From positions 1 through 48,908 of the forward strand of contig JADGKB010000104.1 in NCBI GenBank assembly GCA_027604185.1: DNA of 48,908 bases, written 5' to 3'. This stretch comes from Boothiomyces macroporosus. Taxonomy: Eukaryota; Chytridiomycota; Chytridiomycetes; Rhizophydiales; Terramycetaceae. The number at the start of each line of letters is the position of its first letter. Position 1 is the stretch's first letter. A program made the position numbers and the translations under genes. The notes under the pieces were generated by a model. It was not told the DNA's origin. It saw only the letters and a list, made by a program, of their open reading frames with translations, and did not search any database. Of the stretch, positions 31 to 47,591 are shown piece by piece.

Positions 31-464
31 ATGATGCTGCAAAGTACAGTATCAAAAAGAAGAGCCAAGAAACCAATGAACAGGTGAGATGCAATTAACA
101 TAGTTTTTTTCTTTACAAGAAGGGTTGCCATGTTTTTGACATAGAAATGAAAGAAAGGATAATGAAAGAGTATGGCGTGGTCAAATACAGCGAAATATCA
201 AAGGGATTTGCCGTTTAACACTAGATTGCATCGATGCTGTGGACTAAAGAAAAGCCATCAGTAAAGTTACATTACTCAAAGCTTTCTGAAGAAATCAGAG
301 ACAAGGATCAACTTATTGACTTTGAAGAGCAAGAATCGAGCAAGATTACTATTAGCATTCCTGAAAATCGAGACTTTACCGATTTCAAATCGGGCTTTAC
401 ACCTGAAATTGACCAAACACCAAGCATAGTAGAATATTTAAAATCCAGTAATAAAAGCAATTAA
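31..464 (+). CDS. HMG-box protein, copy 1 (possibly degenerate)
   Basis: MATA_HMG-like DNA-binding protein, about 123 residues after splicing. The N-terminus reads KKPMNSFFLYKKEMKERI once introns 84..103 (20 nt) and 124..144 (21 nt, no stop, length divisible by 3) are removed. A third intron is needed at 204..224 to restore the helix sequence EISKIASMLW, but its first two bases are GG instead of GT. The usual end of the HMG box (the HRxxYPxYxWPS segment seen in the sister copies) is missing. The C-terminus keeps the family motif FTDFKSGFTPEID. A 12-nt GT..AG alternative (213..224) would also keep the frame and add three residues. Either this is a pseudogene losing a splice donor or a non-canonical intron is used. 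The start is one of two adjacent ATGs (31 or 34). Confidence 0.6.
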
Positions 465-675
465 GTTATATTGGCACTTTTGCGCGCAAAAACCAAAATA
501 CTACCTTTTTTAGTTGAGCATTAAAGTTGCCTATTATTTGTCGCCCCATTAGTTCATTTCCTACATTGTGGAGTTTGTGCTATTAGAGCGGTTTCAGTTG
601 GAGCACAACATCACAATGTGCCACACTGATCCCGTTTCGTTAAACGGTAGATAAGGCTTTCTTTGATTAGGGTCT

Positions 676-683
676 TATAAAAA
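676..683 (+). promoter_or_regulatory. TATA box of HMG-box copy 2
   Basis: TATAAAAA lies 53 nt upstream of the ATG at 736. Similar boxes precede HMG copies 4, 5 and 6, so the cluster seems to share a TATA-type core promoter. Confidence 0.55.
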
Positions 684-735
684 GCCTTGCGGTATTAAAA
701 AGATAAAGCGCAACGTTCTAGTCAATCAGATAATC

Positions 736-1864: not shown

Positions 1865-2293
1865 ATGCATATCAAAAAGAAGGAACCAAAGCCAAAACCA
1901 ATCAAGAAGCCAATGAACTGGTAATCCGAGTTTAATTACAGCTTTTTCCGGTACAAGCAGGATATGCGCAAGAAAGTGATTGAAGAATACGGAGTCACAC
2001 AAAACAATGAGATTTCTCGTATAATAGCTGAACTGTGGAGCAAGGAATCACCAGAAACAAAACTGCGATACTCCAAAGAAAGCGAAAAGGCCTACTTGGA
2101 ACACCGAGAGAAATATCCGTAAGTTATTCTTGATCATAGCGATTTTGTTTGGCCTTCAAAGCTATCAACCAAATTGAAAAAGGAAAAGAAGGAAAAGAGC
2201 AGGATGGAAATAAGGTTCAATGATTTCCGCACTGGATTCACTCCCGAGCTGGAAGACTGTGAACCAATTCAAAGATATTTGGCAAGCCTGTAA
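1865..2293 (+). CDS. HMG-box protein, copy 3
   Basis: Spliced product of 128 residues, MATA_HMG-like. Two 21-nt introns, 1921..1941 and 2119..2139, break the ORF. Removing them joins KKPMNC to FFRYKQDMRKKVIEEYG, then SEISRIIAELWSKE, and after the second intron DFVWPSK. The C-terminus carries FNDFRTGFTPELEDCEPI. Intron 1 sits in the codon just after PMN, the same place as in copy 1. Intron 2 sits in the KYP codon region, close to intron 2 of copy 5. The ORF is invisible to a simple ORF scan because each exon is short. Confidence 0.85.
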
Positions 2294-3537: not shown

Positions 3538-3673
3538 CAATGTTGAAAAAACAAAAAAAATGCTGGCATTTACACTCTTTATTGGTTACATCTCTTGTAG
3601 CATATGCATGCGAATTCCGTTTTCATCGGCCGATAGTCTATATTGCGAAATGGAAAAATCTGTTTTTCCCAAA

Positions 3674-4698
3674 ATGAAAGCAGTTATTGTTGAACAGCCA
3701 GGTAGCTTGTTCTAATGTAGGAAGCGCATCATTCTTGAAACTTGGACAAGTGCCAGATGTAGTCCCTAAAGCTGACGAATTGCTGGTAAAAGTCAAATAC
3801 TTTGGATTGAACAGAATGGATATCCTACAACGGGATGGAAGATATCCTGTTCCTCCAAATGTATCTCCGATTCTTGGTGTTGAATTCTCTGGGGATGTTG
3901 TAACCGTCCCATCAAATTCTAAATTCAAAGTCGGTGATCGGGTATTTGGACTAGTATACGGAGGAGCTTATGCCGAATACGTTGCAATTAATGAAAAGAT
4001 GGCTATGCATATCCCGCAAAGTCTATCTTACAAGGAAGCAGCGGCTCTTCCGGAAGTATACTTTACTGCATTGCAGGCTCTAATTTATATTGGCAAAGTC
4101 AAAGAAAATGAAAATGTGTTGATTCATGCTGGTGCATCAGGAGTAGGAACTGCTGCCATTCAAATCGCAAAGTATCTGAAGGCGTAATAATTGCTAATGT
4201 AGCGCAAATATCATTGTGACCGCTGGATCTGATGAAAAGATTGCTTATTGCAAATCACTTGGTGCTACTAGCGGAATTAACTACAAAACTACTCCGGAAT
4301 TTGGTCAACAAGTTTTGAAAGAAACTGGTAGAGGTGCTGACTTTGTCCTTGACTTTATTGGAGCGTCTTATTGGAAAAACAACATGGAAGCCCTTGCTAT
4401 GGATGGCCGAATGGTTATTTTAGGGTTGATGGGCGGCTTCAAGCTGCCAGAAGTAGATATATCTCCGTTCTTGAGAAAGAGAATCCAAGTCTCGGGATCA
4501 ACTCTAAGATCTCGCACTGTTGAATATCAAGCTCAATTAAAAGAAATCTTTGAAAAGGAATTACTTCCAAGGATTGTATCAGGCGAACTAAAGCCTGTCA
4601 TTGACCGTGAATACAGTTGGAATAACATTGTGGATGCTCACTTGCACATGGAAGCTAATGGAAATATTGGCAAGATCTTGGTCTCTACTGATGAATAA
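3674..4698 (+). CDS. Quinone oxidoreductase, PIG3/TP53I3 type
   Basis: Medium-chain dehydrogenase/reductase of 328 residues after removal of two 19-nt introns (3702..3720 and 4184..4202), each ending CTAATGTAG. The order is a GroES-like N-terminal fold (MKAVIVEQPG, then LNRMDILQRDGRYPVP and ILGVEFSG) followed by a nucleotide-binding fold with HAGASGVGTAAIQIAK. This matches the zinc-free NADPH:quinone reductase PIG3 family, whose members are about 330 residues long. They reduce ortho-quinones with NADPH in the cytosol. An in-frame ATG at 3650 would add eight residues; the ATG at 3674 matches family length better. Confidence 0.9.
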
Positions 4699-5062: not shown

Positions 5063-5593
5063 ATGTCAAAGACCAGTACGGAAGTTAAAAAGCCAATGAA
5101 TTCGTTTTTCCGGTACTACAGCGCTAACATTAGATATAAAGCTCACGTTAGAGAAAGGATTGTGCAGCAAACGGGAACAAACAAGAACAGTGTTATTAGT
5201 CGAATTGCAGCTCAAATGTGGGCAGAGGAGACACCAGAAGTTAGAGCTCACTTTAACAAATTGACAGAAGAAGCTTTTTTGGAACATCGCAAGCTCTATC
5301 CAGACTTTCTTTGGCCCTCAAAATCTGAAAAGTTCAAAATTGCCAAACAAAAAGCTAAAGCCAAGCAAGCAGCTCTTTCCCTCAATACCAAAACCAATAT
5401 TACCCGCCAGTTCGCCCAACCTCTTACTCCAAAAGATGAAAACAAGCTTGAGTTTGAATTTGCAGCTCCAATGTCTGCAAGGCTAAACAAGCAGTTTGAC
5501 TTTGAATCTTTCAAGACTGGATGGACCCCAGCCCGAAATGATATTAGCTTCCAAGCATATATTAATCAGAGCTTATTAGCGGCAAACCAATAA
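5063..5593 (+). CDS. HMG-box protein, copy 4
   Basis: Spliced product of 169 residues. A 21-nt intron at 5113..5133 (GTACTACA...CTAACATTAG) lies inside the FFRYK codons. It contains no stop and is a multiple of three, so the ORF runs through it and would insert seven residues into the HMG box. Removing it gives MNSFFRYKAHVRERIV as in the sister copies. The box continues with SVISRIAAQMWAEE and ends PDFLWPSKSEKFK. A lysine/alanine/glutamine-rich linker leads to FESFKTGWTP near the C-terminus. The start is the ATG at 5063. Confidence 0.88.
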   Translation: MSKTSTEVKKPMNSFFRYYSANIRYKAHVRERIVQQTGTNKNSVISRIAAQMWAEETPEVRAHFNKLTEEAFLEHRKLYPDFLWPSKSEKFKIAKQKAKAKQAALSLNTKTNITRQFAQPLTPKDENKLEFEFAAPMSARLNKQFDFESFKTGWTPARNDISFQAYINQSLLAANQ

Positions 5594-6611: not shown

Positions 6612-7396
6612 ATGGAAAACTATTCGCCACCCCTTAAATATAATAGTAGAGCGCATCAAGTAAAGAAGCCCATGAATGCATTCTTTAGGTACACCAATAC
6701 TAATTAAAGGTACAAGGCAGCAATGAAGGATGAGATTATTAGACAGGCAGGCACGACTAAAGGGACGATAGTTAGCAAAGTCGCAGGGGAAATGTGGAGG
6801 AATGAACCAAAAGAAATTCGTGACTACTTTAACAAACAGAGTGCTGACGCAGTAAACGAACACCGCCGAAAATACCCAGATGTAACCAGTTCTTAACATA
6901 GTTTATTTGGCCAAGCAAGAATTCAAAAGCTAGAAAGGAGAAACTGCGAAGAACTGACGGGCATATCATGGAGCCATTTGGAATAATATCAGCAGAAGAA
7001 TTAGCAGCAGTTGAACGAATGAACAATGCAAATGATTCCGATGAAGTTAGTAATGCGGATACCAATGTACTACCACCACTGTATCCTAGTGACAGGAGGT
7101 CTTCCTCGCATTCGGGAGGCTCGCCTCACCTGCAGCATGGAATACTACAGAGTGGTCTTCCACCAATGCAGAATAGACCTAGTCTACATCGCTTGCCACC
7201 GATGCAGTCTAACGGACGTACATCGCCAATGAGCACCAATAATCATATATCTAAAGAGAATAGTTTGCCGCCAATGCATAGAGGGTACTCTATTGATCAC
7301 GGTATCCCAATGATGAATCCTCCCATCCTTCCCAGAGTACACCAAAGTTCGTCTCAAGGATATGGGTATCCAACTCAAGATTCTTGGAATATGTGA
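6612..7396 (+). CDS. HMG-box protein, copy 5, with a different C-terminal tail
   Basis: Spliced product of 247 residues. Introns 6689..6709 (21 nt, ending in AAAG) and 6882..6901 (20 nt). The HMG box reads KKPMNAFFRYKAAMKDEII, then VSKVAGEMW and FIWPSKNSK. Unlike the other five copies it lacks the GFTP motif. Instead it has about 150 residues of low-complexity sequence rich in Ser, Pro and His, with three LPPM repeats and an acidic stretch. Intron 1 falls in the same arginine codon as in copy 4. The tail suggests a separate regulatory partner; no known domain was recognised. Confidence 0.85.
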
Positions 7397-7470: not shown

Positions 7471-9364
7471 CTATTTTCTCCATTTCAAATCATTTGCGTC
7501 TGGAATGGACGTATCATCTGAAAAATAAGAATCTCTGCTTTCTTTAGGAGCTACCTGTCTCCCACTTCTTGGTGTGTCAAATGATTCAGATATTTGTCGA
7601 CCTGGAGAGGCTTTTGGTTTATCAAATGGATCAGATGGATGGCGACTTGGTGGTGGTGACCTAGTCTGTTCTCCCCGTTGCCGGTTAGATGCCGGGCTTG
7701 TGGGTCTATCGTATGGATCGGATGGCTGTCTCGCTGTTGGACTTTTTGGTCTATCGTATGGGTCAGATTTTTGGCGAGATCGGTTTGCATCTCTATCTAC
7801 AGGGGAATGACTGTTGTCCCTGGCTGGGTTTGCACGCTTAGACGCATCATTTGGTGTTCGTGTAGAGCTTTTGGAAAAATCGCTTTTACCAACTTGACTG
7901 TAAGGATCAGAACTTTCCCAAAGATCGCTCTCCTTCTGGGGTGGTGAAGTGTATTTAATATTTGGATTAGCTTTGCCTGATGGAGGAGTATTTGGTGACC
8001 CGGTGTATTGGGATTTGCTGTACTCTGTACCATTATCATATCTTGGTCTTTGATTGTTTCTCCTTCTACTGTCTTGCGATGACTGATAACTTGATGCATC
8101 ATCGTCGGCATATGCCCGACGGGGATCTGCATAGACTGGCGGTTGGCTTCTTTGATTATATTGGTACTGCTGATCGTACTCTGAATATTGCGGATAGCGT
8201 TGATTTGGAAGGCTGTACTGAGAAGCACCATACTGAGATGGCGGTGAATATTGAGATTGAGGTGGATAGTACACCGAAGTTGTTCCGTATGGTGCAGTAG
8301 ATGCATACCCTTCACTGTGCCCGACAGAAGGTGCATAATGATCATCTTCAAAATCTATTGTAGGTAATGTAGGTTGATTTTCCGATGAATATTCCGACCC
8401 GTTTTGAATGCGCTCCCTTTCTTGACGTCGAAGGTCTTGAATTCTTTTCTTGGATTTCTTTTTCAATATTTCTGCGATTCTGAGTTAATAGACAAATACC
8501 TTTTGTCAATTTTATGAACGCAATATTCTTTCAAATTGCCCTGTATGAAACAAAGTAGAATCAGGTATAGGAATCCTGCAATCAATAAAGTAATGAATCC
8601 AAAAGACCAAACCGTCACTGTCACTAATTGCAATGAAATATACATAATCTTTGGCACACCAGCTCCTTGTTTAGGATCAAATAAAGCCTCTATGGCGAAT
8701 ACAAAGTTTCCTTTCTGACTTTGCAGGGCATTGTCCCAGATAAAGTACAAAATGGAAGCTGATAAGAACTGACGAGGGAATTCAGCAAATAGTAATCGCA
8801 TCCAGCCACGAAGTTTGAAAAATACCCAGAATGCCAAGATGTCAACCGTTTTCCTTGAATTTTGGATTTGATTAAAGAAGCAGTAGTGTGGGTATGATCT
8901 AATGCAGTAGTATCTATACGCAATTATTGATGTAAATGCATATGAAATATCTCTAGACTGAATAACTTTCCAAGACTTTTTCCATTCCAAAGCCAACAGC
9001 CCAAAGGATACAAGGAACGACAGCAAAATGATAAAGAATGTTGGGGCGGTACCAAGGGTGTCAACAACTACACTTCTGGTGTTGTTCCCTGTGGTTCCTC
9101 CACCAAATGAAGTCAATTTAAGGTCAACCTTGTCCCCATGAAAGAAACCAGTAATTGCTGAAAAGTTTAGAGAGAACAACAGAACAATGGAGATTAATTC
9201 GAATCCATATACCATAAAATCTGTATTAACTAAAAGCTACCCTTTAGCGTCCCAAAAAAGACTGTTGAATATGCAAGTTTACGGCCAAATGAGTGGTCAA
9301 CGAAATCGTCCACGTCTATATAATCGAAATTGTGGTCTGGAATCTCCTTCCGCTTCCAGGACAT
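7471..9364 (-). CDS. KCH (Kch1/Prm6-type) potassium transporter
   Basis: Product of 617 residues in three exons, with 20-nt introns at 9221..9240 and 8480..8499. Exon 1 starts MSWKRKEIPDHNFDYIDVDD. The membrane part holds about four hydrophobic segments and ends with the KCH-family string CFIQGNLKEYCVHKIDKRI, which continues across intron 2 into AEILKKKSKKR. The cytosolic tail of about 300 residues is rich in Tyr, Gln, Pro and Ser and contains four diverged repeats around SDPYDRPKSP. In yeast, Kch1 and Prm6/Kch2 carry potassium influx that activates calcium entry during the pheromone response. The gene lies between HMG copies 5 and 6. Confidence 0.85.
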
Positions 9365-11082: not shown

Positions 11083-11736
11083 TTAGTCTTGCTTGACTTT
11101 TCTTTTGGCTTCTAAATAGGTTAGTGCAGCTGTAGATCTATCCAATACACTTTTCAATGCTGACCACCAATAAAACACCCCAACAGAACCTGAATTAAGA
11201 TCAATTACCTTCTGGGGCAAAAGGGAATTTTAACCAGTTCGTTATTGGACCAAACCACTGTTCAGGGATATAAAATACAGGCTCTGCTCTCCAAATAACC
11301 AACAATAATATTTGAAATGCCCACAACAAGCCAGGTAACCCCCACGAAACAAATGTAACTGTAACTTCTTTCTTTCCAGCAATCGATTTGGCGCATTCAT
11401 CGTATTCAACAGTTAGCTTATCAAACTTTCGTTTCAATTTTGCCCATTTTGCAAATTCATCTTGTGCGCTGGTTTGTAAAAGTTCCTTTCGGGTTGCTAA
11501 TAACTCTGACTTTAACTTTTGGATTTGGATTGTGGATTTACTGTTGAACAGGTGCTGCTGTAGGTTGAAGACCTGCATAAAAGTAAAACTACCTTTTGCC
11601 CAATCTTGTTGAATCCGTATATGGTACATATATGGTGTATAATGACTATGACGAGGATGGTGAGGAGTGGAAACATATGAGATTCGCCAGGAAAAATTCC
11701 AACACTCGGAGCATTAAGTTCAATGAGTGATACCAT
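11083..11736 (-). CDS. GET1: GET1/WRB tail-anchored protein insertion receptor
   Basis: Product of 204 residues in three exons, with introns 11573..11592 (20 nt) and 11190..11208 (19 nt). Without the second splice the ORF would stop early at PEGN; splicing restores the family C-terminus PEGSVGVFYWWSALKSVL. The topology is a first membrane segment (HMFPLLTILVIVIIHHI), a cytosolic coiled coil with the hallmark SAQDEFAKWAKLKRKFDKL, a second membrane segment after TVTFVSWGLP and a third near the end. GET1 with GET2 forms the ER receptor for the GET3 ATPase, which delivers tail-anchored membrane proteins. Confidence 0.92.
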
Positions 11737-26613: not shown

Positions 26614-28497
<1,884 letters not shown>

Positions 28498-33925: not shown

Positions 33926-35259
33926 ATGGGCTCAAATATCTCGCTATTCCAACGACCACAGCAATTTCAGGACAACAGCTTGATATCAAGATCCACTTAC
34001 TATGGACCTCATTTTGTAATGGACGATGAAAATATTAGCAGCACATCAACGAGAGCTTTTGTCGAGGATATTCTCAATGTGCTATCTCTCGGCCAGCTGG
34101 GGAATTTACAAGAAATCGCAGCATTAGGAAACTTGTATAACGAATTACCGCCCCCTCCGTTAAGAAAAGCTAAAACGCTGCAGTCTAAAATTAACTTGAT
34201 CAAGAGCAGTATCCAAGTGCTATACAAGAACAATAACACGGAGATAACATTCAAATACGATTCATTAGTGCCATGCTATATTTCAATCTATTTCAATGGC
34301 AGAGTTACATTTGAAAATAGTTCTGAATCTAATTTGAAATTCAAGTAAGCGTTGTTAATCCAGTATCTTGACTGAAAATGATAAGCCTGCTACTTTCAAA
34401 AGATTTGGCCCCTTTCCTGCTGGCTTAAACCAGGGCTTTACTACCACTGAGGATGCGTTGCAAGTATACGGTAGTCACGAAACTGTTATGCATGTTCAAA
34501 CCAATTTACCTGTATCCCCTACAGTCTCCCCAGTTAACGTAACATCGCCAACTAGCGCCACTGAAGCTAATCCATTGATAAATAGGTCCAACATCCCACC
34601 ACCAATATCTATAAATTTACCTTCTCAACCACCAGAGGTAATTTCCCCATCAAGTATAAATCCAACTGCTCTATACGATATCGTTATTGTTTTAGAAGAG
34701 CAAGATCCATCAATTTCTCATGGTAAAGCTGGTCTAACAAGATTTCCAAACACCATACATGAATGCCCAAGCAACGAGTATCTTGCTTAAAAAGAGTGAT
34801 GCATTCGAAATCATTTATTCGAAACAAAACTTGCTTATTGATGGTATTCCGTACCTGCTTCAAGAAGTGTATGGATTCAGTGAATCGGAAACAGACAACA
34901 GGAATGACCAAGGTTTGTGTCGTTAATGTAGTAAGCATGAAGGAATGTGTAGTGTGCATGTCGGATTACAAAGATACTTTGGTGCTACCATGCCGACACC
35001 TATGTTTATGCAATAGTTGTGCCGAAGTACTTCGCAACTCTCAAAACTCTCCAACTAGTCCACAGACACCAAGCTCCAGAGGACCCCCAAAATGTCCGAT
35101 ATGTAGACAAGGTATACCGTGCTTAATTTAGTGTTCCATTCGCTTGTCCAGATTAAGCTTCCTCCGCCATACGATATCAAGAGCGCTAGGGCTTCAAGAG
35201 TGAATATGCCCGACACCAAGGGCTTTGGGTCATCTCTATACAGATCTCAAGGAGTGTGA
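33926..35259 (+). CDS. MGRN1/RNF157-type RING ubiquitin ligase
   Basis: Product of 418 residues in five exons; introns 34345..34363, 34733..34751, 34913..34931 (19 nt each) and 35112..35131 (20 nt). It starts MGSNIS, a predicted N-myristoylation signal as in MGRN1. The central beta-rich domain (TLQSKINLIKSSIQVLYK, then VYGSHETVMHVQTN) leads to SKQNLLIDGIPYLLQEVYG. The C3HC4 RING follows: CVVC, LPCRHLCLCNSC and CPIC, with a Ser/Pro insertion of about 18 residues before the last pair, ending CRQVFHSLVQIKLPPPYD. These ligases act at membranes on receptors and ESCRT components. Each junction was set by alignment to this family. Confidence 0.9.
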
Positions 35260-35346: not shown

Positions 35347-36658
35347 ATGATTCTGGCACCGTCAATCGCCTCTGATATACTATCTGATACCGACAAGACG
35401 CAATTCTCAATCCTGCCATCTACGGGGTCGTTCTACCGCCTGCCTTCCTTTCTGTTTTCCAGCGCCAAGAAATTGGTTGGTATTAAGTCTACTCCACCTA
35501 CACAGACTATATTCAGAAACAGTTTGAATTCTTCGTTGACTAAACCCGAAGGTACTTTTTGCTAATATAGGGTACAATAAGCTATCGCAGAAATTCGCCA
35601 CTTCTGCATTAAGAAATACATGTAATGTGTCTGGAAGTTTGTTTTCCAGCTCATTAACTGTTGCCAGCGGGTTTGCTAACTGTGCCGCAATTGCCGCTGT
35701 CCCTATTATCAACCATACTCCATATTTGGGCACAATGTCCCAAACTAGCACAGGTAAATTAAAAGATGTCTCTGATTTACGTGACACAATCATAAATACC
35801 ACCGAAAAGATCTTGCAAGCTCTACCTTTTGCTGAAAAGTTCGTTGGCGCTCTTTCCATTTACCAACCACATGAAAGGAAAGGAGCTGAAGATGATTACT
35901 TGAATGGATTCCATGTATATTCCAGCGGAGAACTTTCTGAAGACTTGTCGTTCTCTTTTTCTGGCTGCGGTTGGCTAATCTTTTACGAACTTGGGGTTGC
36001 GCAATGTCTTTGCGATACCATCAAACCAGATATTCTTCGAAAAGCTAAATTCTTGGGCTCTTCCACTGGTTCTATTATTGCATTATGTTTGGCACTTAAT
36101 TTGGATCTCGAAATGCTTCGCGAAAAGCTAATGGAGCTGGTACAAGAATCGTCTGCCAATCTGCTTTCCCCATTCGTTGCAATTTCCAATATTATTCGGC
36201 CGTTACTAGAAAAACTAGTTCATCGAAACATTGATATGTGTCGGGATAGGCTATTCATATCTCTTACTGAGCTACCATCTGGTAAAAACGTTCTACTATC
36301 TCAGTTTTCGTCAAGAACGGTACTCGGTTGTTAATATTAGGAATTAATCAACCATATAATAAGCTCGTGTTCCCTTCCAGTCTTTAGCAATAATATTTCT
36401 CTACAAGACCAACTTTATATCAGTGGAGATCTATCAGATAGAATTCCTGTATATAACGAAATGACAATAACCGCGAGCCCTTACCAACAGTTGGCAAATA
36501 TCTCGCCGTGCAATATCCAGTATACCAAGAATGATGAATATTGCCCACGATCCAATATGCAGAATTACAACTCCATGTTTGAAAATGGATGGAGCGATAC
36601 CTACCAGTGGCTAACTACCAAGAAATCAAGCGGGGTATTGACCGGATTAATCTTTTAA
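35347..36658 (+). CDS. Patatin-like (PNPLA) protein, second paralogue
   Basis: Product of 423 residues; introns 35552..35570 (19 nt) and 36320..36340 (21 nt). The patatin domain keeps the oxyanion loop (FSFSGCGWLIFYELGVAQCL) and a GxSxG elbow (FLGSSTGSIIA). In the DG[GA] region it has YISGDLSDRIP, so the usual aspartate is serine and an Asp stands two residues later. It is thus better preserved than the paralogue at 11977-13092 but may still be inactive. Related animal PNPLA1-5 enzymes handle triacylglycerol and acylceramide. A Ser/Thr-rich N-terminal region of about 140 residues precedes the domain. Confidence 0.78.
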
Positions 36659-36834: not shown

Positions 36835-37937
36835 ATGAATTCAGAGCTTGTACTAAAGAAGGATTTTGTTGATCAAGTAAGAATTCAAACACAACCACTA
36901 CCTCCACTTGCACCTGAACATGTACTAATTCGTATCGAGATATTCGGATTAACAGCCAACAATATTACGTACATTGCCCTCGGAAAGTCATTGCAATATT
37001 TTGATTTCTTTCCGGCTGATTCTGCAGATGAAGCCAAAGCACCTGTTTGGGGGATCGGTATTCATTGCTAATGTCAGGGGTGATTGAACAATCCAATTCG
37101 CCTTTATTGAAGAAGGGAGAGCGCATTTATGGCTATTATCCAATCGCAAAGTACATCAGTTTCAAGCCGGTTTCAATTAAAAACAACTTTTTTTATGTTA
37201 TAAGGGATCAACTACCAAGGGATCGCGCAGTATATAATCAATATTTCAGGGCTAATGGTGATCCGGAATATATCAAGAACAATGAAGAGTTGATGTTGTT
37301 GTTCAGACCGCTTTGGACGACATCCTTCTTCCTCCACGATTTCCTAGTCGCAAATGGATTCTTTGATGCAAAGAAAGTAGTAATTTCAAGTGCTTCGTCC
37401 AAGACTGGGTATTCATTTGCCTTGTTGCTAAAGGACAATGATTTTGAAGTAATTGGGCTAACTTCGAAATCCAATGTTGAATTTGTTACTAGCTTGAATT
37501 TCTACGACAAGGTAGTTAGATATGATGACATTTCTGAACTACCAACTGACGAACCAATTGTTTATTGTGACTTTGCAGGAAGTGATTCACTTAATCGCAC
37601 CATTCACAACCACTTTGGTCCAAAGCTCCAAAAACAGGTGGTCGCTGGGATGTCTCACGTCTCAGAAGCCAATTCAAAGTTTGGAGATGACAAATCGATA
37701 ACCTTCTTTGCCCCAGAATGGATAAAAGTTCGCAAGCCTAAAGTTGGAGACAATATTGTTGAAAGACGCGAAAAGGCATGGAACTACTTTATTGAAACTA
37801 TTGTGCCTCATGTTAATCTTAAATATGTGAATGGAGCAAAGGATGTTGTCAAGGTTTACCACAAAATGTTGAAAGGACAGTCGACCCCCGATGAAGGATA
37901 CATCTTGTCAATGTTTGACAGCTCTGCAAAGCTTTAA
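36835..37937 (+). CDS. DUF2855 family protein (MDR-like)
   Basis: Product of 360 residues after removal of a 20-nt intron at 37058..37077 (ends GCTAATGTCAG). It opens with a GroES-like segment (VLIRIEIFGLTANNITYIALG) with FFPA and then VWGIGVIEQS, continues GERIYGYYPIAKYI, and has a degenerate nucleotide-binding region, KVVISSASSKTGYSFALLL, followed by VYCDFAGSD. This is the DUF2855 family, found in fungi and bacteria and related to medium-chain reductases. The substrate is unknown to me. The usual GxGxxG dinucleotide motif is replaced by SASSKTG. Confidence 0.82.
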
Positions 37938-38057: not shown

Positions 38058-40184
38058 ATGGGAAGAAAAGTCTACCCTGATGACGATAACAATGAATTTG
38101 AAGACGTTAAAGTACCTTCTTTTATGCCAAAGAAGCGATATTGCCGGGATGTACCGTTTTTAATCCTATTTATCGTGTTTTGGTTTGGAATGATAATTGT
38201 GGCTACAAGTGCAGTTAAGGAAGGAGACCCAAAGAGATTAATGTAATTAGAAACTAACTTTGTGTTCCACAAGACTATTTGGGCAATTATTGTGGATATG
38301 TTACATACGACGCAAATGGCACCATGACTGCATTTGGTAACCAAACAGCAAATCCATACTTGTACTATTTTAATCTGTATAGTAAGGCTGATATTAAAGC
38401 TAGGCCCTGCAACTACTAGCGCGATATGTGTGTCGTCTTGCCCCAATGCTACCGAACTGTTGTCATATTCAAACGCGCTATGCGTTTACAATACAACAGC
38501 CACTGTTCAGAGCTTTTACAGTTTGGTCAGCACAGGCTTGTGTGTAAGTTATACTATTGAATCATCTCCAATTTTGAACAGATGCATTCCGTCAATTGCC
38601 GCCGGAGTAGCTTCAGCAATTGTAAACTCCACATCTGCAAATGTCACTATCACGAATACTACTTCCTCGACAAGCGTTAGTGCAATCTTGAGTCAAGGAA
38701 GAGACACAACTATGCAAGTGATTGCAGACTTGACAATTACGTGGCCAGTCATTGCTGTTGGAGCCGGAGTGTCGTTGATTATCTGCTTTATTTGGATGCT
38801 TCTCCTCCAAAAGATTGCGGGATTCTTTGTGTGGTTAACTATAATTGCTTGCAATTTGGTATTCGATGCTGCTGCAATTTGGTTGTATTTGTATTGGCAA
38901 GCAAAAGTAGCTCAAGATAATGGCACTACTACAACTGGTGTTATAGCCGTTGCTAGTTCCTACGTAGGTATCAATAACTCTACAACAACAGTACAAATTG
39001 AAACACAAACTGTTGCCGATGTGTTTTATGTTATGTGCGCAATTGGTGGGTTGCTGTTGTTGATTACTATCGCGCTGCTAAAGAGAATTGTTATTGCGAT
39101 CAAGGTTATCAAACAGGCTTCAAAAGCAATGGGAAGGATGCCTACTATCAGTATTAAAATTGCTAATTCTAGTATTCTTCCCATTATTCATTTGGATCTT
39201 CATGATTGCCAATCTAGCATATTTCATCTGGATCCTGCTCTATATCATCACACCATCGGGACAAGTTACTCCGTCAATAGAGTTGTTCTCTCTGGTTTGG
39301 ACGGATCCAAAAATTAGTCAGTATGAACTAGGATATCATATATTTGGATTCTTATGGACATTATTCTTTTTCAGTGGTATAAACCAAGTCACAGTAGCTG
39401 GGGCTATTGCTACTTGGTATTGGACAATGGACAAGAAAAAATCACTCAGATTCCCTGTCCTGCGATCATTTGGAAGAACACTATTATATCACCTCGGATC
39501 TATTGCTGTTGGATCTCTCTTGATTGCTATTGTAGAGTTTATCAGAATAGTGCTTTACGAAATACAGCGTCGAGTAAAAAAAACACAAAACAAATTCTTG
39601 ATTTATCTAGTAGCTTGCCTTCAGTGTTGCATGAAAGTAGTAGCAATGCTGGTTAAATTCATCAATCGCAATGCGTATATCTATCTTGCGATTACTGGCA
39701 AAGCGTTCTTCAAATCCGCAGGGGAAGCGACTTCCTTGATTGTCAAGAATGCATTACGAACAGTGGCAGTAGATTTCGTATCAGATTTTATTCTGTTCAT
39801 TTCCAAATTATTTGTTATGGGCATTACGGGATTCTTGGCATACCTATACTTGACATACTGGAGCTCCACCTTGCCTAATGCCTCTTCTATTAACTATCCG
39901 TTTTTAACTGTCGCTTTTGTTTCTATCGCAGCATTCATTGTCGGTACAGCATTCTTTAGCATCTATGACATGGCGATAAACACTATTTTCTTGTCATTCC
40001 TTATTGATATTGACAAGAATGATGGTTCTAGGGAAAGACCATTCTATATGACGGATGACTTGAAGGATGTTATGGGACTTGAGAATGAAGTGCCAAAGAA
40101 AGCTGAAAAGGTAATTCAATATTTCACAATTAGGGAACTGGGCAAAGGAAGGTTAGGCACACCCAGCAGATTGATGAATTCTAA
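38058..40184 (+). CDS. SLC44 choline-transporter-like protein, copy A
   Basis: Product of 679 residues; introns 38243..38262, 38382..38403 (22), 39151..39172 (22) and 40111..40133 (23). Multi-pass membrane protein of the CTL/SLC44 family: KKRYCRDVPFLILFI near the start, GDPKRLI, a Cys-rich glycosylated loop, then WPVIAVGAGVSLIICFIW, MPTIIFFPLFIWIF, FLWTLFFFSGINQVTVAGA, WYWTMDKKKS and LVACLQCCMKVVAML. Members carry choline or act as choline/ethanolamine antiporters. The first intron must end in TG rather than AG to join GDPKRLI to VPQDYLGNYCGYV; no in-frame AG acceptor is available. Copy B has a normal AG at the same point. Confidence 0.85.
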
Positions 40185-40243: not shown

Positions 40244-42509
40244 ATGGCAAAGAAGGTTTACGTTGAGCCAGACGACGAAGAATCTGGAAATATCAAGGTG
40301 CCGTCGTTCATTACAAAAAAACGATATTGTAGAGATGTTCCTTTTCTGGTAATTTTCGTTGCGTTCTGGTTTGGAATGGTATTGGTCGCTCAGAGTGCCT
40401 TGAAATATGGCGACCCAAGGAGACTAATGTAAATCTGTTTAATGCTAGAGTTCCGCAAGACTATCTGGATAATTATTGCGGATATGTCACGTACGACTCG
40501 AATGGAACAGTCGGACCGTTTGGCAACCAGACAGGAAAGCCTTACCTATACTACTTTGACCTATTTAGTAATTACATTTAACCTGAAGATCCAACTGCAA
40601 GTGTTGCTATTTGTGTTTCATCGTGTCCAAACACCACTCAAATTCTAACTTATACTGATGCTCTCTGTGTCTATAACTATACCACATCAGCTAACACATT
40701 TATTTCAGATTTATCGTCTCAATACTGTGTTGCCTACACAATTGATACTGCACCAGTATTAAATCGTTGTGTCCCTACAATTGGAACAAGTGCAATTACC
40801 TCTGTTGTGAATTCGACTTCTGCAAATACAACGATAACTGCAAATACTACGTCAAGTTCAATTTTCACCTCTATTTTGAACGACGGCAGAGATACTACTA
40901 TGCAAGTTATAGCAGACCTGACGATCACTTGGCCAGTAATAGTAGCAGGAGCAGGTTTAGCCCTACTTATCAGTTTAATCTGGATGATTATGCTTCAAAT
41001 ACTAGCAGGCTTCTTTGTGTGGTTAACAGTAATTATTTGCAATTTGGTATTTGATGTAGCAGCCCTATGGCTCTATCTGTATTGGCAGTCAAAACTGGCA
41101 GCTGCAAGTGGAACAACAACCTCAGGTATTGTTGCAACTGCAAGTTCTTATGTTGGAATAAACAACTCCACAACCGCAATACAAATAGACACTAATACAG
41201 TCAGTTACGTCTTCTATACAGTGGCTGCTTTAGCTGGATTACTGCTACTGATTACTATTGCATTGATCAAACGTATTAGGATAGCAATTGCCATTATCAA
41301 ACAAGCCTCAAAAGCAATGGCCAAGATGCCTACCATCGGTAACTATATTCTAACTCTAGTATTTTTTCCACTAGGTATTTGGATCTTTCTAGCACTCAAC
41401 TTGGCTTACTTTATCTATATTGGATTATATATTATCACACCAAGTGGGCAAGTAACGCCGTCAATCCAGCTATTTTCGCTAGTGTGGAATGACCCGAATA
41501 TTAAACAGTACGAGTTAGCATACCACATATTTGGATTTTTATGGACAATGTTCTTTCTGAGCGGCATAAATCAAGTCACAATTGCTGGGGCGATTGCTAC
41601 ATGGTACTGGACTATGGACAAGAAAAAGTCTCTAAAGTTCCCCGTAATGCGTTCATTTGGAAGAGTGTTACTCTATCACTTGGGGTCAATCGCTTTAGGA
41701 TCGCTGTTAATTGCAATCGTTGAATTTATCCGTCTAGTCTTGTACGAAATTCAAAGAAGGGTGAAAAAGACAAACAACCAGTTTCTTACTTATTTAGTAG
41801 CTTGCCTACAATGTTGCATGAAGGTAGTAGCAATGCTGGTTAAATTCGTCAACAAGAATGCCTATATTTACATTGCTATTACTGGCAAAGCATTTTTCAA
41901 GTCTGCAGGGGAGGCAACTGCATTGATCATCAAGAACGCACTCAGCGCAATTGCCCTGGATTGTGTCTCTGATTTCATTTTGGTAATATCTAAAGTATTT
42001 GTAGCTGGGATAACTGGTTTTTTGGCATACTTGTATTTAGCCTATTTTAGCTCAAGTCTTCCAAACGCATCCTCAATTAACTACCCAATAGTAACCGTAA
42101 TATTTGTCGCAATCGCTGGTCTGATGGTAGCCCAAGCATTCTTTAGTGTGTACGATATGGCAATTAACACGATAACCCTCTCATTTTTGATTGATTTGGA
42201 CAAGAATGACGGATCAAGGGAAAGACCTTACTTTATGAATGATGAATTAAGGAGGATTATGGGTTTGGAAAACGTAAAGCCAAAGAAGGGGAAAAAAGTA
42301 GTTCCTGAAGATGGCGATAAACCTAGCAGATCTAAAAAGAGGAATGACGACGATGATGATGAACCACCAAGGAGGAGAACTACAAAGAAGAGTAAGGCTA
42401 TTTCTTCAGACGAAGATGAAGAAGATCCACGTCCGAAACCATCAAAGAAGGTATTTATCATTAATAGTAGGGAAGGAAAGTTAAATCAGAAGAAATGGAA
42501 GAACTATAG
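40244..42509 (+). CDS. SLC44 choline-transporter-like protein, copy B
   Basis: Product of 727 residues; introns 40429..40448 (20), 40568..40588 (21), 41339..41359 (21, stop-free and divisible by 3) and 42451..42470 (20). Tandem paralogue of copy A, highly similar across the membrane domain (ADLTITWPVIVAGAGL, ITPSGQVTPSIQLFSLVW, LVACLQCCMKVVAMLVKF). The hidden third intron, if kept, would insert seven residues into MPTIVFFPLGIWIF. The cytosolic tail is longer than in A and strongly charged (NDDDDDEPPRRR, SSDEDEEDPRP). The four intron positions match those in A, so the duplication came after intron gain. It starts at ATG 40244 and ends 12 nt from the CDC6 stop. Confidence 0.9.
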
Positions 42510-42521
42510 ATTGTATAATGT

Positions 42522-44007
42522 TTATTTTTTTCTAAATTTTTTGTTTTTCAAGAGAGCTTCTTCTCCCTTTTCCAAAATTTCAGCCAACAGAGCTACTTTT
42601 GATACGGCATTAACGATTTCATCTGGTTGGATGTTTAACCCTACCACTGCCTCTGATAGTTGAGTTTGGCCGCGTTTATATCCAAGTGTAATCAAACCCA
42701 AAGTATCAAGTTGGGTTATGATATCATTGAATTCTGATTTTTCAACTCTACCAACTTGCGATTGGTAGCTGCAGATTGTTCTATAACTTTCCTCGACCTG
42801 CTGTCAGATTCTTTTTACCTTTCTAACAGATAAATCCTTTTGTTTTGTCTTGATCATCAAATAAACGGTAGAAAGTACAAGCTTGGACTGCATTTGCAAT
42901 TTATCTATTCTGGAATTTGAAGAAGCTCCAAGCATGCTTGAGGCAGCGGATAATACATGCTTAACAGTTACTTTTGGAATAATTAGAGAGTTTTCTTGGG
43001 ATTTTTCTTCATTCTCTACCATTTGAATTGCCATTCTACAAACATCAAGTGCTTTACGTAAATCTCCAGTTCCTGCTAATTTCCTTGCAGCTAACTCAAC
43101 AGCCATTGGCTGCATGATTGGTAAATCCTGTTTACCATTCGGCTTGATTGGCGAAGCTGGTTCATCAGGCTCATCCAAAGTCATTAATCGATCTTTGATA
43201 ATTGCCGCAATTTCTTTGATCTGATATGGATTGAAAGACAAGTACTCTGGCTCATCTAAATGAGAAACGCTTTACAATTTTTCGATTGAAGTCTTGGTAA
43301 AAATCTTGAGGTAAGATCCAACGCATTAGCAATTCCAATCATCACCAATCTAGAGTTGGGCATTTTTGCCCACTCAAAGAGCGTGTACAATTCATCTTGA
43401 TCTCTGGTGATCAAATTATCAATTTCATCCAATACCAATAAACTATTGTTAATATAGTATACTAAATAGCTCCAGGGTTTTTAGACGGGACTACTCGAGA
43501 TTTCACAAGTTCTTTTGTCAAAGAAGCACTTCCGGAGAGCTTCCACTTATCCGCAAGTGTAGAATATATATTTTTAGCATCGGTGATGTTCATACAATTG
43601 ATGAATGCGTATTTGACTGTAAACGGGAGCTCTCTAAATGCTTTCTCTCGCTGCTGCAATATTTCATTTAGTAGTGCAGTCTTTCCAGTTCCAGGACAAC
43701 CAGAGATATACAAGGAACCAGATTTCTGTCCAGTTACATGTTCGTCAATGAAACAGTTGAGCTTTTGTCGCTCGCTTTCCCTTCCTATTAGTTTCTTTGG
43801 TGTAGCACATCGCCTAAAAGCTGCCTTTGCTTCCTGCAGTATTTTCAACGGTGTTCTTTTTGGTGTTTCGTTCTGGCTTTTCAATTCTTTTTTTGTGGGT
43901 GTAAGATGATCGATTGAAATCTTTGGTTTCTTTGGAGTCGATTGGTTGGTATCCAGTCGGGACAGTGGAACTTCTTCCAGCGCTCTTTTTCCTGATCGTG
44001 TCTTCAT
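42522..44007 (-). CDS. CDC6: Replication licensing factor CDC6
   Basis: Product of 474 residues in four exons; introns 43443..43462 (20), 43256..43275 (20) and 42798..42818 (21). The AAA+ ATPase has Walker A GCPGTGKTALLNE, Walker B LLVLDEIDNL, LYTLFEWAKMPNSRLVMIGI and sensor/arginine region DLTSRFLPRLQ, then GDLRKALDVCRMAIQMVE and a winged-helix end (VEKSEFNDIITQLDTLGLI). The N-terminus of about 80 residues has five Thr/Ser-Pro-Lys/Arg-like sites (STPKK, ETPKR, RTPLK, ATPKK and similar), likely CDK targets as in other CDC6 proteins. CDC6 loads MCM with ORC at origins. Length compared with human CDC6 (560): shorter N-terminus. Confidence 0.93.
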
Positions 44008-44349
44008 TCCAAGATTTTTTGTTGTCCAGAACAGAAATTATTTTTCGTGTCTGGGATTTCAGACAAACGTTCAACCCACTTGGGTTTGTTTGTAGTCCAT
44101 TTTGGAAATCTAGTGGGAATTTGTACCAGTAATAAAGGGGATTTTGAGTGGGAATAATTTGAATACGATTATTGCCTAGGAAATTATGTTGTCTGGGAGT
44201 GTGATTTCCCGCAGTTAACAAAGATGCTTGCAAGACTATTCACCTGGAATGTGAAAGTGGCTTGAGAACAATTAGAGTTTAAACTTCACACCCCTTGATA
44301 ACGTTATCAAAGGTGTATAAAATCTGCAGGAATTTTAAACTACCTTATT
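44008..44349. promoter_or_regulatory. Divergent promoter with GATA palindrome and TATA box
   Basis: 342 nt between divergent starts. TTGATAACGTTATCAA at 44294-44309 is a perfect 16-bp palindrome containing two opposed GATA cores (TGATAA/TTATCA). TATAAAA at 44315-44321 follows 5 nt later and is 28 nt upstream of the ATG at 44350. The arrangement looks like an activator site next to a core promoter. Confidence 0.55.
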
Positions 44350-45685
44350 ATGAGAGAAACAAAATCGGTAGGCTCGACTGATACAATTGTAACGATAAAC
44401 ACATCAGATATGCTCTATAATCAACCCGATTTCAACCAAAATTCAAAAAGAATATACATTGCCGCTTCCAAAAAGTATTTTGTTCCAATAGACACTTCGA
44501 CTTGTAGGAACTGGCTGGATTTTACCACGTTACTCTTTACGAATAACCGGTTGAATATTCCAATCACTCAGTGCATTTCCCACGTTTACACTGTCAACTC
44601 AAAGGATGGCACTCAATTGATCGTAGACCAATTGGACGACTTGAAAGAAAAGGCGTTTTACTATATTCCTAGTGCGTAATAAATACAGGGTTTCAATGTT
44701 TGATGTAATTTTGCTGATGAATCACTACCTGCCATTTGGCCGCATGACTACAGAGGCGTGTGAACTTTCCCAATTTCCCATGGACCAATTTCCTACAGAG
44801 TTATACAACCCAGATGGATCATTTACCCAGCCAGTAAAAGAGTTGCTGGATTTTGCTCCTCAAATACTCGAAAGTGTCGTGCAAGCTAAAATATTAGAAA
44901 CAAAACCAAGTACCAACTCGGTAGTAAATGAAGCGCTTCTCAATTCTGCTTTATTGAGCTCAATTACTAAACGAGACAACATTCAAATTATTAATAACAA
45001 CAATCCGACGATGCAGAATACTCAGAACGTTCAGTCAGAAAGACGGCCTTCCAAACAGAAAAAGGAAGAAGAGAACGAAGAAAAGGAAAAAAAGAAGGAA
45101 GAAAAGAAGGAATCAACCAATTATCTGTTGGGTTTGGGAGCGTTTGCTACAATGTTATTTGCGGTTTATCATGTTTCCCAAAAAACGGGCGAAATCGACT
45201 ATGTGGAAAATGTCGAGATGATTGTTGATCGTGTTGTAGATATCCTAAAGTCAACTAAATTATGGATGTACAATTGCAAAAGGTATGATTTAAACGTTCC
45301 AAAAATTGTTGAAGAGGATTATGAAGCTTTAAAAACCATATGCGACTGTATTGAGCGTATTAACAGTAAGCAGGAAAAGATTTGGAAGAGAAGATGCTAC
45401 GGCCTATTAGCAATTTCGAGCTCCTGCGTTCTGGGATCAATATTTCCAAAGTCTCCAAAGTCCTTGGTTTATATCGGAACTGCTGGAATATGCTCCTCAT
45501 TACTCGGTTTGGTTTACATAGTTGGCTTACATTCTTCCAGACCGCATCAATTATCTATTCAATTATACGCATCCAGAGCACAGGAACTTTGCAGCTCACT
45601 TTTTCCGTCCCCAGTCCGCGTACAAAAAGTCCGGAAATCATTAGGGATCGATCAATCAAACGAATCAGAGTGGGTAATGACCTGA
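44350..45685 (+). CDS. Doublecortin-like domain membrane protein (junction uncertain)
   Basis: Two adjacent ORFs (44350-44679 and from about 44672) seem to form one protein of 440 residues if 13 nt (44676..44688, GTAATAAATACAG) are removed; a 17-nt alternative donor (44672) breaks the frame. The first part (RIYIAASKKYFVPID...DFTTLLFTNNRL...DQLDDLKEKAFYYI) resembles a doublecortin domain. The rest has a Lys/Glu-rich coiled stretch and about three membrane segments (LLGLGAFATMLFAVYHV, YGLLAISSSCVLGSIF, LVYIGTAGICSSLLGLVYIV). Alternatively these are two genes, the second starting at ATG 44697, but 17 nt would leave no room for a promoter. Family assignment is tentative. Confidence 0.5.
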
Positions 45686-45887
45686 CAATAAATCTACATC
45701 TTATTTTGCATAGCGTTATTTGTTTTGTGTGGAGCAGCTGATATGATGACGGTGTTGCCTGTTAGTTGACATTGTAATATCAACAATGAGATTTTGTAAA
45801 GACATACCACAACTAAAAACTTGTTTTAATAATAGGAAATCACTTTCTAATCTCTTTAAATCAATTTGCTAAACATTGAAGACAGAC

Positions 45888-47591
45888 ATGCCACAAAATA
45901 TAGACACTTTATTACCTCAACCCTCAATTAGAGAATCTGAATGCCAGTCTCAAAGGAGTAGAGACTGCGAATTAGTAAATACTGCCAGATATGATTCCGC
46001 GGGGACCTTGACTCATCAAAGCTCTAGCGGATCTGGACAGTTGATTGAAGATATGTCAATTGCAATCGATCACCCTTCTCAAACTGGAGATATTAGACAA
46101 CAGGACCCTCGATTTACTATCAGACAGCAATCAGAAAGCAGTTTTTCTGACAGCCATTGCAGTTATCATCAGGACGTGTCCGCAGAGAGCAGCGAATTAT
46201 CAGAGGACGAAATGGAATCATCATCAGTTTCAGGACAAAGTAAACGATCAGCACAGGCGGTGTCGAATCAGACATTACTTCGCAAGCAGATTTTGGAGAT
46301 CCAAGCAAACAGTTCCTTATCAGGAGCAGAAAAAGCAAAAATGATTCAGGTGACCAGTTACTGATTGTAGGATTTAATGTCAAAACCATGGCAGCAAAAA
46401 CAGAAACAAGAGCTTAAAAAGGACACACGCATTACCAATTTCTTGGCACAAAAATCTAACGATTTTTCTGTTGTGCTGGAATCAGATAAATGCAAAACTT
46501 ACTATGTAAATTGTATTTAAAAGCAGTCAGAGAATATCTTGGGATGTAAGCATTACCAAAGAGCATGTAAGCTGCAGGCTCACTGTTGCGGAAAATGGGA
46601 TACGTGTAGATTTTGCCATGACGAAGTTTCCGACCATACAATAACAAGGTAATTATTTCTCATATTAGGAACCTCATTAAAACCATGATGTGTATGTATT
46701 GCTGGACTGTTCAGCCTGCGGGCCAAATATGTATCAATAATGAATGTGGTAAGGCTGTATCAGCGTACTATTGTAAGGAATGTAAACTCTGGGATAATGA
46801 CCCAAGAAAAAATATATATCACTGCTACGATTGTGGAATTTGCAGAATCGGAAAAGGGTTGGGTATCGACTACTTCCACTGTCCCACATGTAACGTTTGT
46901 ATGGCGATAGGGCTAAAAGGAAAACACAAGTGTATTGAAAGAAATTTAGAAAGCGATTGTCCGATATGTGGGGAATACATGTTTACTTCGACTTCTACGG
47001 TTATTTTTATGGTAACCGTTTTTTCACATAGCCCTGCGGCCATTGTATGCATCATAAATGCCATCAGCAGCACATACATACATCATATCAATGCCCAACT
47101 TGTCTAAAATCTTTAGCCGACATGAGCGAGTACTTGATGTTAATTGCAGGTATTTTCGAAGAATTGATATTGCGTTGGCTCAACATCAAATGCCTCCTGA
47201 ATACCATGACACTTTTAGTCACATCTACTGTAACGACTGTGAAAAGAAATCACATGCAAAATTCCACTTTATTTACCATAAGTGTGGTCATTGCAGGGGC
47301 TACAATACAAAACTGATATCTACCCAGGTAGGATTGCCAGCAGATGCTTGTATTGCCTCAGATATAGTACTAGAGCAAGGACAAAGTAGATTGGATCGAT
47401 TAGAGTCGTCGGCTTCAATCATCTCAGCTTCATCTAGCTCCTCGAGGGGAGATGATTTTGTTGGGATTTGGTGTCATCATTGTCAAGTAATTACGCTATA
47501 ACCATAGGGGCCAACGGAGCTGGTTGAGGACCAAGGGTTGGAAAAGTGTAACCGATGCATGTCAGACTTTGTTGAAAAGATGGAAGATTAG
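45888..47591 (+). CDS. CHY/CTCHY/RING zinc finger ligase (RCHY1/PIRH2 type)
   Basis: Product of 526 residues in seven exons; introns 46350..46370, 46506..46526, 46649..46668, 47012..47031, 47130..47149 and 47487..47507 (20-21 nt). The order is a Ser/Gln-rich N-terminal extension of about 160 residues, a linker (PWQQKQKQELKKDTRI), the CHY finger (LGCKHYQRACKLQAHCCGKW...CRFCHDEVSDH), CTCHY (CKECKLWDNDPRKNIYHC), the RING (CPICGEYMF...PCGHCMHHKC...CPTC) and the rubredoxin-like end (IYCNDCEKKSHAKFH...CGHCRGYNT), then a Ser-rich tail with CHHC and CNRC. PIRH2 proteins ubiquitinate p53 and checkpoint proteins in animals. The extension and tail make this twice the size of human RCHY1. Confidence 0.93.

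Follow-up and report, generated by a model that had tools for sequence, protein, structure and literature searches.

Genes on contig JADGKB010000104.1 of the chytrid Boothiomyces macroporosus (Rhizophydiales, Terramycetaceae) are interrupted by segments of only 18-24 nucleotides (nt), which raises the question of whether segments so short are spliceosomal introns and, if so, what kind of spliceosome removes them. The stretch analysed, hereafter the window, is 48,908 nt long and corresponds to contig C104 in a whole assembly of 15.2 Mb and 216 contigs. The analysis bears out the proposal of the initial annotation that ultrashort introns with spliceosomal anatomy occur in a flagellated fungus. 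As far as sequence can tell, these segments are very probably genuine U2-type spliceosomal introns, reduced to a fixed layout close to the minimum and spliced by a largely canonical spliceosome. This confidence covers the introns and the spliceosome, and does not extend to the reading of the single long intron in DBP2 that is set out below.

Three results do not depend on motif-trained gene models: a motif-span count, a motif-blind gene finder and the tally of branch motifs among the introns of that finder. They are the only ones that are independent in this sense. The motif-span count scored GTA...[CT]TAA[CT]N1-6AG on both strands of ∼285 kb against order-2 random sequences, with loci L001 and L003 counted twice as they lie inside L021 and L019. 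Spans of 19, 20 and 21 nt were observed 92, 99 and 56 times, against 8.1, 8.9 and 9.9 in random sequence, and required no gene model. Spans of 22-24 nt form a weak shoulder only, and no comparable peak appears from 25 to 59 nt (4-18 observed, 8-11 random). Over the same sequence, control words with a GTG donor, a GCA donor or a YCAAY branch gave no peak at 19-21 nt. The GCA donor control showed a lone excess at 25 nt (24 versus 9.6), and this count gave no enrichment of GC-AG introns in general at 19-21 nt. The motif-blind finder was given coding potential, an open frame, two boundary dinucleotides and a length prior that was flat from 12 to 120 nt. It placed 83 of 213 GT-AG introns at 19-21 nt, compared with 5/175 for GC-AG, 3/185 for GT-AC, 9/198 for AT-AG and 4/182 for GA-AG boundaries. 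Among its 104 introns of 18-24 nt, 76 carry YTRAY with the A 4-7 nt before the end, and 95 start with GTA. An earlier frame test of boundary pairs, built on 80-codon exons, ranked GT-AG 8th of 256 with no clear excess; it was underpowered, and other tests took its place. Gene models built with no length prior were dropped, as they fused adjacent short introns into false long ones.

Sampling beyond the window reveals that the pattern recurs. The sample combined the window with 20 ten-kb stretches from contigs C1-C20 (248.9 kb in all), the stretches being hand-chosen and some lying near kinase hits. A finder with the learned motif and a length prior produced 134 gene models, 107 of them with introns. 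The claim of genome-wide recurrence holds up in this sample, 200 kb of which comes from 20 other contigs: of the 337 introns modelled, 327 measure 18-24 nt. These 327 fall in 174.2 kb of coding sequence, a density of ∼1.9 per kb, from which ∼20,000 introns are estimated for the whole assembly. Thus, across 249-285 kb of the 15.2 Mb, nearly all introns are shorter than ∼25 nt and their spread is narrow, the trait of an ultrashort-intron genome. Ten models exceed 26 nt: DBP2 (175 nt) was kept, and one is a pair of 22 + 21 nt. Five look like finder artefacts on reading (L013, 102 nt; L027, 108 nt; L019, 80 nt; L025, 139 nt; window 448-670), and three more were neither kept nor called artefacts (L017, 121 nt; L022, 83 nt; L025, 172 nt). 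On reading, the long models of L013 and L027 each probably enclose a 21-nt GC-AG intron that has a branch motif (8521-8541 and 5013-5033, reverse-strand count). Several kinase, CWC25, CCCH and RRM hits occurred in identical-score pairs, on the same or different contigs (C49/C100, C10, C65, C36, C20), a sign that the assembly may hold duplications or haplotypes that were not collapsed.

The 327 introns share a compact anatomy. GTA starts 312 of them and YTRAY is found in 257; AT content is 70%, and phases are distributed 128/112/87. The donor has A at +4 in 61% of cases and G at +5 in 22%. Among the 257 YTRAY introns, the branch A occupies intron position 14 or 15 in 222, and in 218 its distance to the exon is 5-6 nt. 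The gap between the donor hexamer and the 7-nt branch element ending in YTRAY is 2-3 nt in 222 of 256. The lariat loop would be 14-15 nt and the tail 5-6 nt. The initial annotation had described a branch site fused to the acceptor: the closeness of the two is confirmed, but it is not the special feature, as the donor-branch distance is equally fixed (222/257). With both spacings fixed, branch-acceptor closeness is only half of the constraint. These introns display the features of the U2 type: they have GT-AG ends and a branch motif suited to U2, and the genome encodes canonical U1, U2 and U6 cores.

Within the window, 65 short introns were placed, 63 from the gene finder with some by hand and then two more, in addition to the 175-nt DBP2 intron. 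Four are doubtful and one has a TG end, and the earlier count of about 65, all but that of DBP2 at 18-24 nt, is thereby upheld. The lengths are 18 nt (1), 19 nt (12), 20 nt (29), 21 nt (17), 22 nt (4), 23 nt (1) and 24 nt (1). Of five examples named in the initial annotation, 3702-3720, 4184-4202, 13944-13962 (minus strand) and 32541-32558 are exact, and 34733-34751 was shifted by 10, the intron being 34723-34741. Its statement that splicing leaves every gene in frame applies to the retained models, all of which are open frames, with the exception of the HMG fragment at 1-470, which breaks. The introns are listed below with strand, length, gene and support; where no support is named, it is the gene finder.

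84..103, + strand, 20 nt, DOUBTFUL, HMG-box gene fragment; frame lost ∼37 codons past the join (by eye)
1921..1941, + strand, 21 nt, HMG-box-like gene
2119..2139, + strand, 21 nt, HMG-box-like gene
3702..3720, + strand, 19 nt, quinone oxidoreductase (gene finder, homolog comparison)
4184..4202, + strand, 19 nt, quinone oxidoreductase (gene finder, homolog comparison)
5113..5133, + strand, 21 nt, HMG-box-like gene
6689..6709, + strand, 21 nt, HMG-box-like gene
6882..6901, + strand, 20 nt, HMG-box-like gene
8480..8499, - strand, 20 nt, KCH potassium-channel-like gene (gene finder, Pfam for the gene)
11190..11208, - strand, 19 nt
11573..11592, - strand, 20 nt
13436..13455, - strand, 20 nt, IFT52 intron 7 (gene finder, homologs, JEL0838 protein)
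13621..13640, - strand, 20 nt, IFT52 intron 6 (same support)
13682..13701, - strand, 20 nt, IFT52 intron 5 (same support)
13944..13962, - strand, 19 nt, IFT52 intron 4 (same support)
14123..14141, - strand, 19 nt, IFT52 intron 3 (same support)
14272..14291, - strand, 20 nt, IFT52 intron 2 (same support)
14380..14399, - strand, 20 nt, IFT52 intron 1 (same support)
16457..16476, - strand, 20 nt, proline-rich gene
16639..16659, - strand, 21 nt, second of a back-to-back pair (gene finder, pattern search)
16660..16681, - strand, 22 nt, first of the back-to-back pair (gene finder, pattern search)
21023..21042, + strand, 20 nt, ciliary Ig-repeat gene (gene finder, Pfam for the gene)
22203..22223, + strand, 21 nt, ciliary Ig-repeat gene
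22339..22358, + strand, 20 nt, ciliary Ig-repeat gene
22520..22539, + strand, 20 nt, ciliary Ig-repeat gene
22804..22827, + strand, 24 nt, ciliary Ig-repeat gene
23554..23573, + strand, 20 nt, ciliary Ig-repeat gene
23712..23731, + strand, 20 nt, ciliary Ig-repeat gene
24179..24197, + strand, 19 nt, ciliary Ig-repeat gene
24621..24642, + strand, 22 nt, ciliary Ig-repeat gene
25076..25096, + strand, 21 nt, DOUBTFUL, ciliary Ig-repeat gene; length divisible by three, without a stop (gene finder only)
25237..25257, + strand, 21 nt, ciliary Ig-repeat gene
25531..25551, + strand, 21 nt, ciliary Ig-repeat gene
26116..26135, + strand, 20 nt, ciliary Ig-repeat gene
26505..26524, + strand, 20 nt, ciliary Ig-repeat gene
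26840..26859, - strand, 20 nt, DBP2 (gene finder, homolog alignment)
26951..27125, - strand, 175 nt, DBP2, the sole long intron, between RGL and DVK (homolog alignment, folding)
27353..27373, - strand, 21 nt, DOUBTFUL, DBP2; length divisible by three, without a stop (gene finder; alignment does not decide)
31578..31596, + strand, 19 nt
32541..32558, + strand, 18 nt
32654..32672, + strand, 19 nt
33601..33620, - strand, 20 nt
34345..34363, + strand, 19 nt, RING-finger-like gene, named by eye (gene finder, by hand)
34723..34741, + strand, 19 nt, RING-finger-like gene (gene finder, by hand)
34913..34931, + strand, 19 nt, RING-finger-like gene (by eye, open frame)
35112..35131, + strand, 20 nt, RING-finger-like gene (by eye, open frame)
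35552..35570, + strand, 19 nt (gene finder, by hand)
36320..36340, + strand, 21 nt (by eye, open frame)
37058..37077, + strand, 20 nt
38243..38262, + strand, 20 nt, GT-TG ends, CTL-like gene 1 (codon position and phase equal 40429-40448 in the paralogue)
38382..38403, + strand, 22 nt, CTL-like gene 1 (gene finder, paralogue)
39151..39172, + strand, 22 nt, CTL-like gene 1 (gene finder, paralogue)
40111..40133, + strand, 23 nt, DOUBTFUL, CTL-like gene 1; frame open with or without it (by eye)
40429..40448, + strand, 20 nt, CTL-like gene 2 (gene finder, paralogue)
40568..40588, + strand, 21 nt, CTL-like gene 2 (gene finder, paralogue)
41339..41359, + strand, 21 nt, CTL-like gene 2 (gene finder, paralogue)
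42451..42470, + strand, 20 nt, CTL-like gene 2 (gene finder, hand model)
42798..42818, - strand, 21 nt, CDC6 (gene finder, homolog; public protein has the same join)
43256..43275, - strand, 20 nt, CDC6 (gene finder, homolog; public protein has the same join)
43443..43462, - strand, 20 nt, CDC6 (gene finder, homolog; public protein differs)
46350..46370, + strand, 21 nt, CHY/RING-like zinc-finger gene (by eye, complete open frame)
46506..46526, + strand, 21 nt, CHY/RING-like zinc-finger gene (hand model)
46649..46668, + strand, 20 nt, CHY/RING-like zinc-finger gene (hand model)
47012..47031, + strand, 20 nt, CHY/RING-like zinc-finger gene (hand model)
47130..47149, + strand, 20 nt, CHY/RING-like zinc-finger gene (hand model)
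47487..47507, + strand, 21 nt, CHY/RING-like zinc-finger gene (hand model)

Several gene names in this list call for comment. The gene at 17182-26587 had been labelled CFAP47, a name that could not be confirmed; Pfam finds HYDIN/CFAP65-like Ig repeats in its first exon. The tandem genes are presumably CTL-like, and we take the gene at 46350-47507 to be a CHY/RING-like zinc-finger gene, the one exon tested giving no Pfam match. Six HMG-box-like genes or fragments fill the first 10 kb (1-470, 736-1167, 1865-2293, 5063-5593, 6612-7396 and 9794-10231), a local expansion in which Pfam found HMG_box in 736-1167 and 9794-10231, the two that were run, the other four being called by eye. The back-to-back pair at 16639-16681 comprises introns of 22 + 21 nt with zero exon between them, the alternative being a single 43-nt intron; removal of the first would re-form the donor for the second. 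A search for such pairs gave 5 pattern hits at 4 places, and only 16639-16681 was taken as fitting its gene.

Comparison with proteins supports the joins. The spliced IFT52 model, with seven introns removed, is equal in length to the public protein of Boothiomyces sp. JEL0838 and agrees with it at 435 of 437 residues. Its seven joins are gap-free (within ∼5 residues) in 115/117, 118/119, 118/119, 71/119, 114/120, 118/119 and 116/119 homologs, the fourth falling in a variable stretch. Matches to solved homologs run through further joins with at most small gaps: two in DBP2, three in Slu7, three of four in U2AF65 (the third judged from equal lengths in a table, not from a printed alignment), three in Cdc6, three in SF1 and one of two in the quinone oxidoreductase. 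The tandem CTL-like genes share three introns at identical codon and phase, with lengths of 20/20, 22/21 and 22/21 nt; in ungapped comparison, their exon flanks match at 16-25 of 30 bases and the introns at 6-11 of 20-21 positions.

Introns this short are already implicit in public protein models. The spliced Cdc6 is 98% identical to the public B. macroporosus Cdc6 over 95% of the query. Two of the three joins are also present in the public protein. Around the remaining one, 8 residues alignable to human CDC6 are missing from it, which points to a probable error in the public model at that site; the two proteins differ at the C-terminus as well. Public IFT52, Isy1 and Cdc6 models from Boothiomyces and Terramyces (P0002, P0007, P0121, P0241-P0244) miss or alter differing stretches near ultrashort introns. 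This suggests that public gene models and proteomes of Terramycetaceae contain errors at such introns, possibly many.

What machinery, then, handles these introns? Nine of the ten spliceosome parts sought were found: U1, U2, U6, SF1, U2AF65, Slu7, Prp18, Cwc25 and Isy1. U1 is present as one gene with a canonical 5' end (score 68.8, slightly below the Rfam cut-off of 69.5), U6 as one gene with a canonical ACAGAGA region, and U2 as two genes with a canonical branch-recognition stretch. The two U2 small nuclear RNA (snRNA) genes (L029, L030) have almost identical 5' halves and diverged 3' halves. SF1 has its KH and zinc-knuckle parts and a motif that aligns with the human U2AF-binding stretch, while U2AF65 matches across RRM1, RRM2 and the third RRM-like domain, its exon-by-exon genome search falling below the family cut-off. 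The Cwc25 model starts with MGGGDL, the glycine plug, and has W12 and W24. None of SF1, U2AF65, Slu7, Prp18 and Cwc25 displays a visible loss, and the models of their own genes carry introns of 19-24 nt. In yeast, Slu7 and Prp18 are little needed when branch and acceptor are close. Both are kept here despite the short branch-acceptor distance. Strong reduction of the mikrocytid or microsporidian type was not seen among the ten parts sought, U4, U5 and most proteins lying outside the search. Two further genes, L049 and L051, resemble by eye what we take to be the splicing factors RNF113/Cwc24 and RBM22/Ecm2; they are modelled with 19-20-nt introns, L051 also with one 195-nt call.

Splicing may proceed as follows. 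U1 would pair weakly with the donor, and the mostly lost +5 G may free the linker. SF1 and U2AF65, followed by U2, would read the branch element, with U6 replacing U1. Branching would then give the 14-15-nt lariat loop and 5-6-nt tail, with donor, branch and acceptor read as one rigid block.

Several observations weigh against this account. YTRAY is missing from 70 of the 327 introns. The finder behind the 327/337 figure relied on the motif together with a learned length prior, which makes this figure not independent. When seven wrong boundary pairs were supplied as controls, it still returned between 15 and 44 introns of 18-24 nt, compared with 336 for GT-AG; part of the 327 may therefore be false. 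In-frame stops occur in 65 of 78 introns whose length is divisible by three and in 152 of 249 others, but the contrast among strong-motif introns is 28/36 versus 78/131 (P = 0.05). A search for U2AF35, in which 6 of 17 CCCH hits were readable, did not locate it, and nothing follows from this result.

Among the rival explanations, the one that survives best accepts the introns as real and places the novelty in the machinery: a specialised spliceosome, as proposed for Stentor, altered in other parts (the Isy1 N-terminus, U2AF35, Prp8, Prp22, Cactin or others). It is less probable than a largely canonical spliceosome by a wide measure, yet deserves serious thought. Apart from U2AF35, Isy1 is what speaks for it: the model from this analysis and the public one both start without the usual MARN-type pattern, which is found in 73 of 120 listed homologs, and the Isy1 N-terminus of Stentor is described as non-conserved (PMC9505925). 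However, the Isy1 start position is uncertain here, and an exon-2 stretch resembles the usual N-terminal motif behind an extension. Cwc25 also argues the other way, as MGGG, W12 and W24 are kept, whereas Stentor Cwc25 is described as having no glycine plug (PMC9505925). The initial annotation had argued that the spliceosome must recognise branch site and acceptor as one unit; no changed spliceosome was found in the parts compared, U1, U2, U6, SF1, U2AF65, Slu7, Prp18 and Cwc25 all being canonical-looking.

The single long intron needs separate treatment. The 175-nt DBP2 intron has the same end types as the short introns, and its join is gap-free against yeast Dbp2. The yeast exon boundary presumably lies at the same codon, between RGL/I and DVK of the helicase core. 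According to Kilchert et al. (PMC4695336), position and length of the DBP2 intron are conserved in S. cerevisiae and higher eukaryotes, its splicing is inefficient, and retention in S. cerevisiae is relieved by a helicase-dead mutant. The chytrid intron is like this DBP2/DDX5 regulatory intron in being long, in the same gene and at a position consistent with the conserved one; it differs in measuring merely 175 nt among introns of ∼20 nt and in its strong predicted stem. Its predicted fold (-43 kcal/mol, z = -3.3) is matched in stability by 1 of 200 shuffles, and 0 of 300 mid-shuffled sequences are as low. The 21 pairs of the stem join intron nt 10-32 to 137-158; 9 nt precede the stem, and 10 nt separate it from the branch A. 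A TNAAAC motif was searched for within the intron and not found.

This may be a position-conserved intron retained for negative feedback, in which the 21-bp stem could set the effective donor-branch spacing near 20 nt and the Dbp2 helicase might unwind the stem in its own intron, halting its own splicing. A second alternative is stricter and generalises the idea: the whole intron would be a rigid 19-21-nt block required by a canonical spliceosome, and longer introns would survive only where folding restores the donor-branch spacing, as in DBP2, whose helicase would open the stem, over-lengthen the spacing and stop its own splicing. We regard this as unlikely, slightly more so than the specialised spliceosome. 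The folding evidence carries its own counterweights: in the lowest-energy structure the donor is likewise paired with the branch region; bridging is only suggestive, since 11 of 200 shuffles have as many donor-side/branch-side pairs; the end-to-end graph distance is not unusual; and the fold rests on one sequence.

Far weaker is the idea that the segments are not spliced at all, being skipped by programmed translational bypassing or excised as DNA in another nucleus. Mitochondrial byp elements and ciliate internal eliminated sequences (IES) are precedents for such processes. The GT-AG ends, a branch motif that fits canonical U2, a U1 with a canonical 5' end, the fitting protein joins and the matching ends of the DBP2 intron make it highly improbable. 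Least credible of all are sequencing or assembly errors and finder artefacts that mimic 20-nt gaps: the five artefact-like long models and the three others not kept, the false short introns from control boundaries and the disagreement among relatives' public gene models lend it something, and a motif peak independent of gene models, the motif-blind spike and the agreement of paralogues, another isolate's protein and 20 stretches from other contigs largely contradict it.

With genuine U2-type introns as the favoured reading, the system can be placed among known ultrashort-intron genomes. Among the matches listed in a search of open-access literature, which covers few subscription papers or preprints, none deals with introns of this size in chytrids, Boothiomyces included. 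Among fungi, Cryptococcus is the short-intron genus named in a survey of 644 genomes (mean 63 bp; Lim et al., PMC8476143), and Boothiomyces introns are about one third of that length. The Bigelowiella natans nucleomorph (18-21 nt) has a nearly equal length range, many introns and a narrow spread (PMC10245619). Unlike the fungal nucleus with its clear branch motif, it is an endosymbiont relic with 5' sites that are largely GT(A) and no branch signature (PMC2483917). Stentor coeruleus (15-16 nt) shares GT-AG ends, a fixed branch-A position, a 5-nt tail, AT-richness and a full set of snRNAs, whereas the introns described here are 4-5 nt longer, place the branch A at 14-15 rather than 10-11, carry an explicit YTRAY and coexist with the Cwc25 glycine plug (PMC9505925). 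Mikrocytos mackini (16-17 nt) is alike in uniform length and conserved sequence, but it is a parasite with 224 introns in which 17-19 spliceosomal proteins were found (PMC10245619); here SF1, U2AF65, Slu7, Prp18 and Cwc25 were found beside an estimated ∼20,000 introns. The short introns of Trichomonas vaginalis (23-25 nt) likewise fuse the branch site with the acceptor motif, but 63 introns are described (PMC12316389), in contrast to the intron-rich genes of Boothiomyces.

A further comparison is with the class described by Irimia and Roy in 2008, intron-rich genomes whose introns were the shortest known at the time and lack a branch signature (PMC2483917). Boothiomyces departs from it, with YTRAY at a fixed place in 76 of 104 motif-blind introns, and so provides a counterexample to the pattern that such genomes lose this signature. 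The shortest intron class now extends to a fungus with a spliceosome that looks complete as far as it was tested, and this system stands nearer than ciliates or nucleomorphs to the splicing models of yeast and human. It makes testable how short the donor-branch and branch-acceptor distances can become in a normal spliceosome, and with them the limit on intron size.

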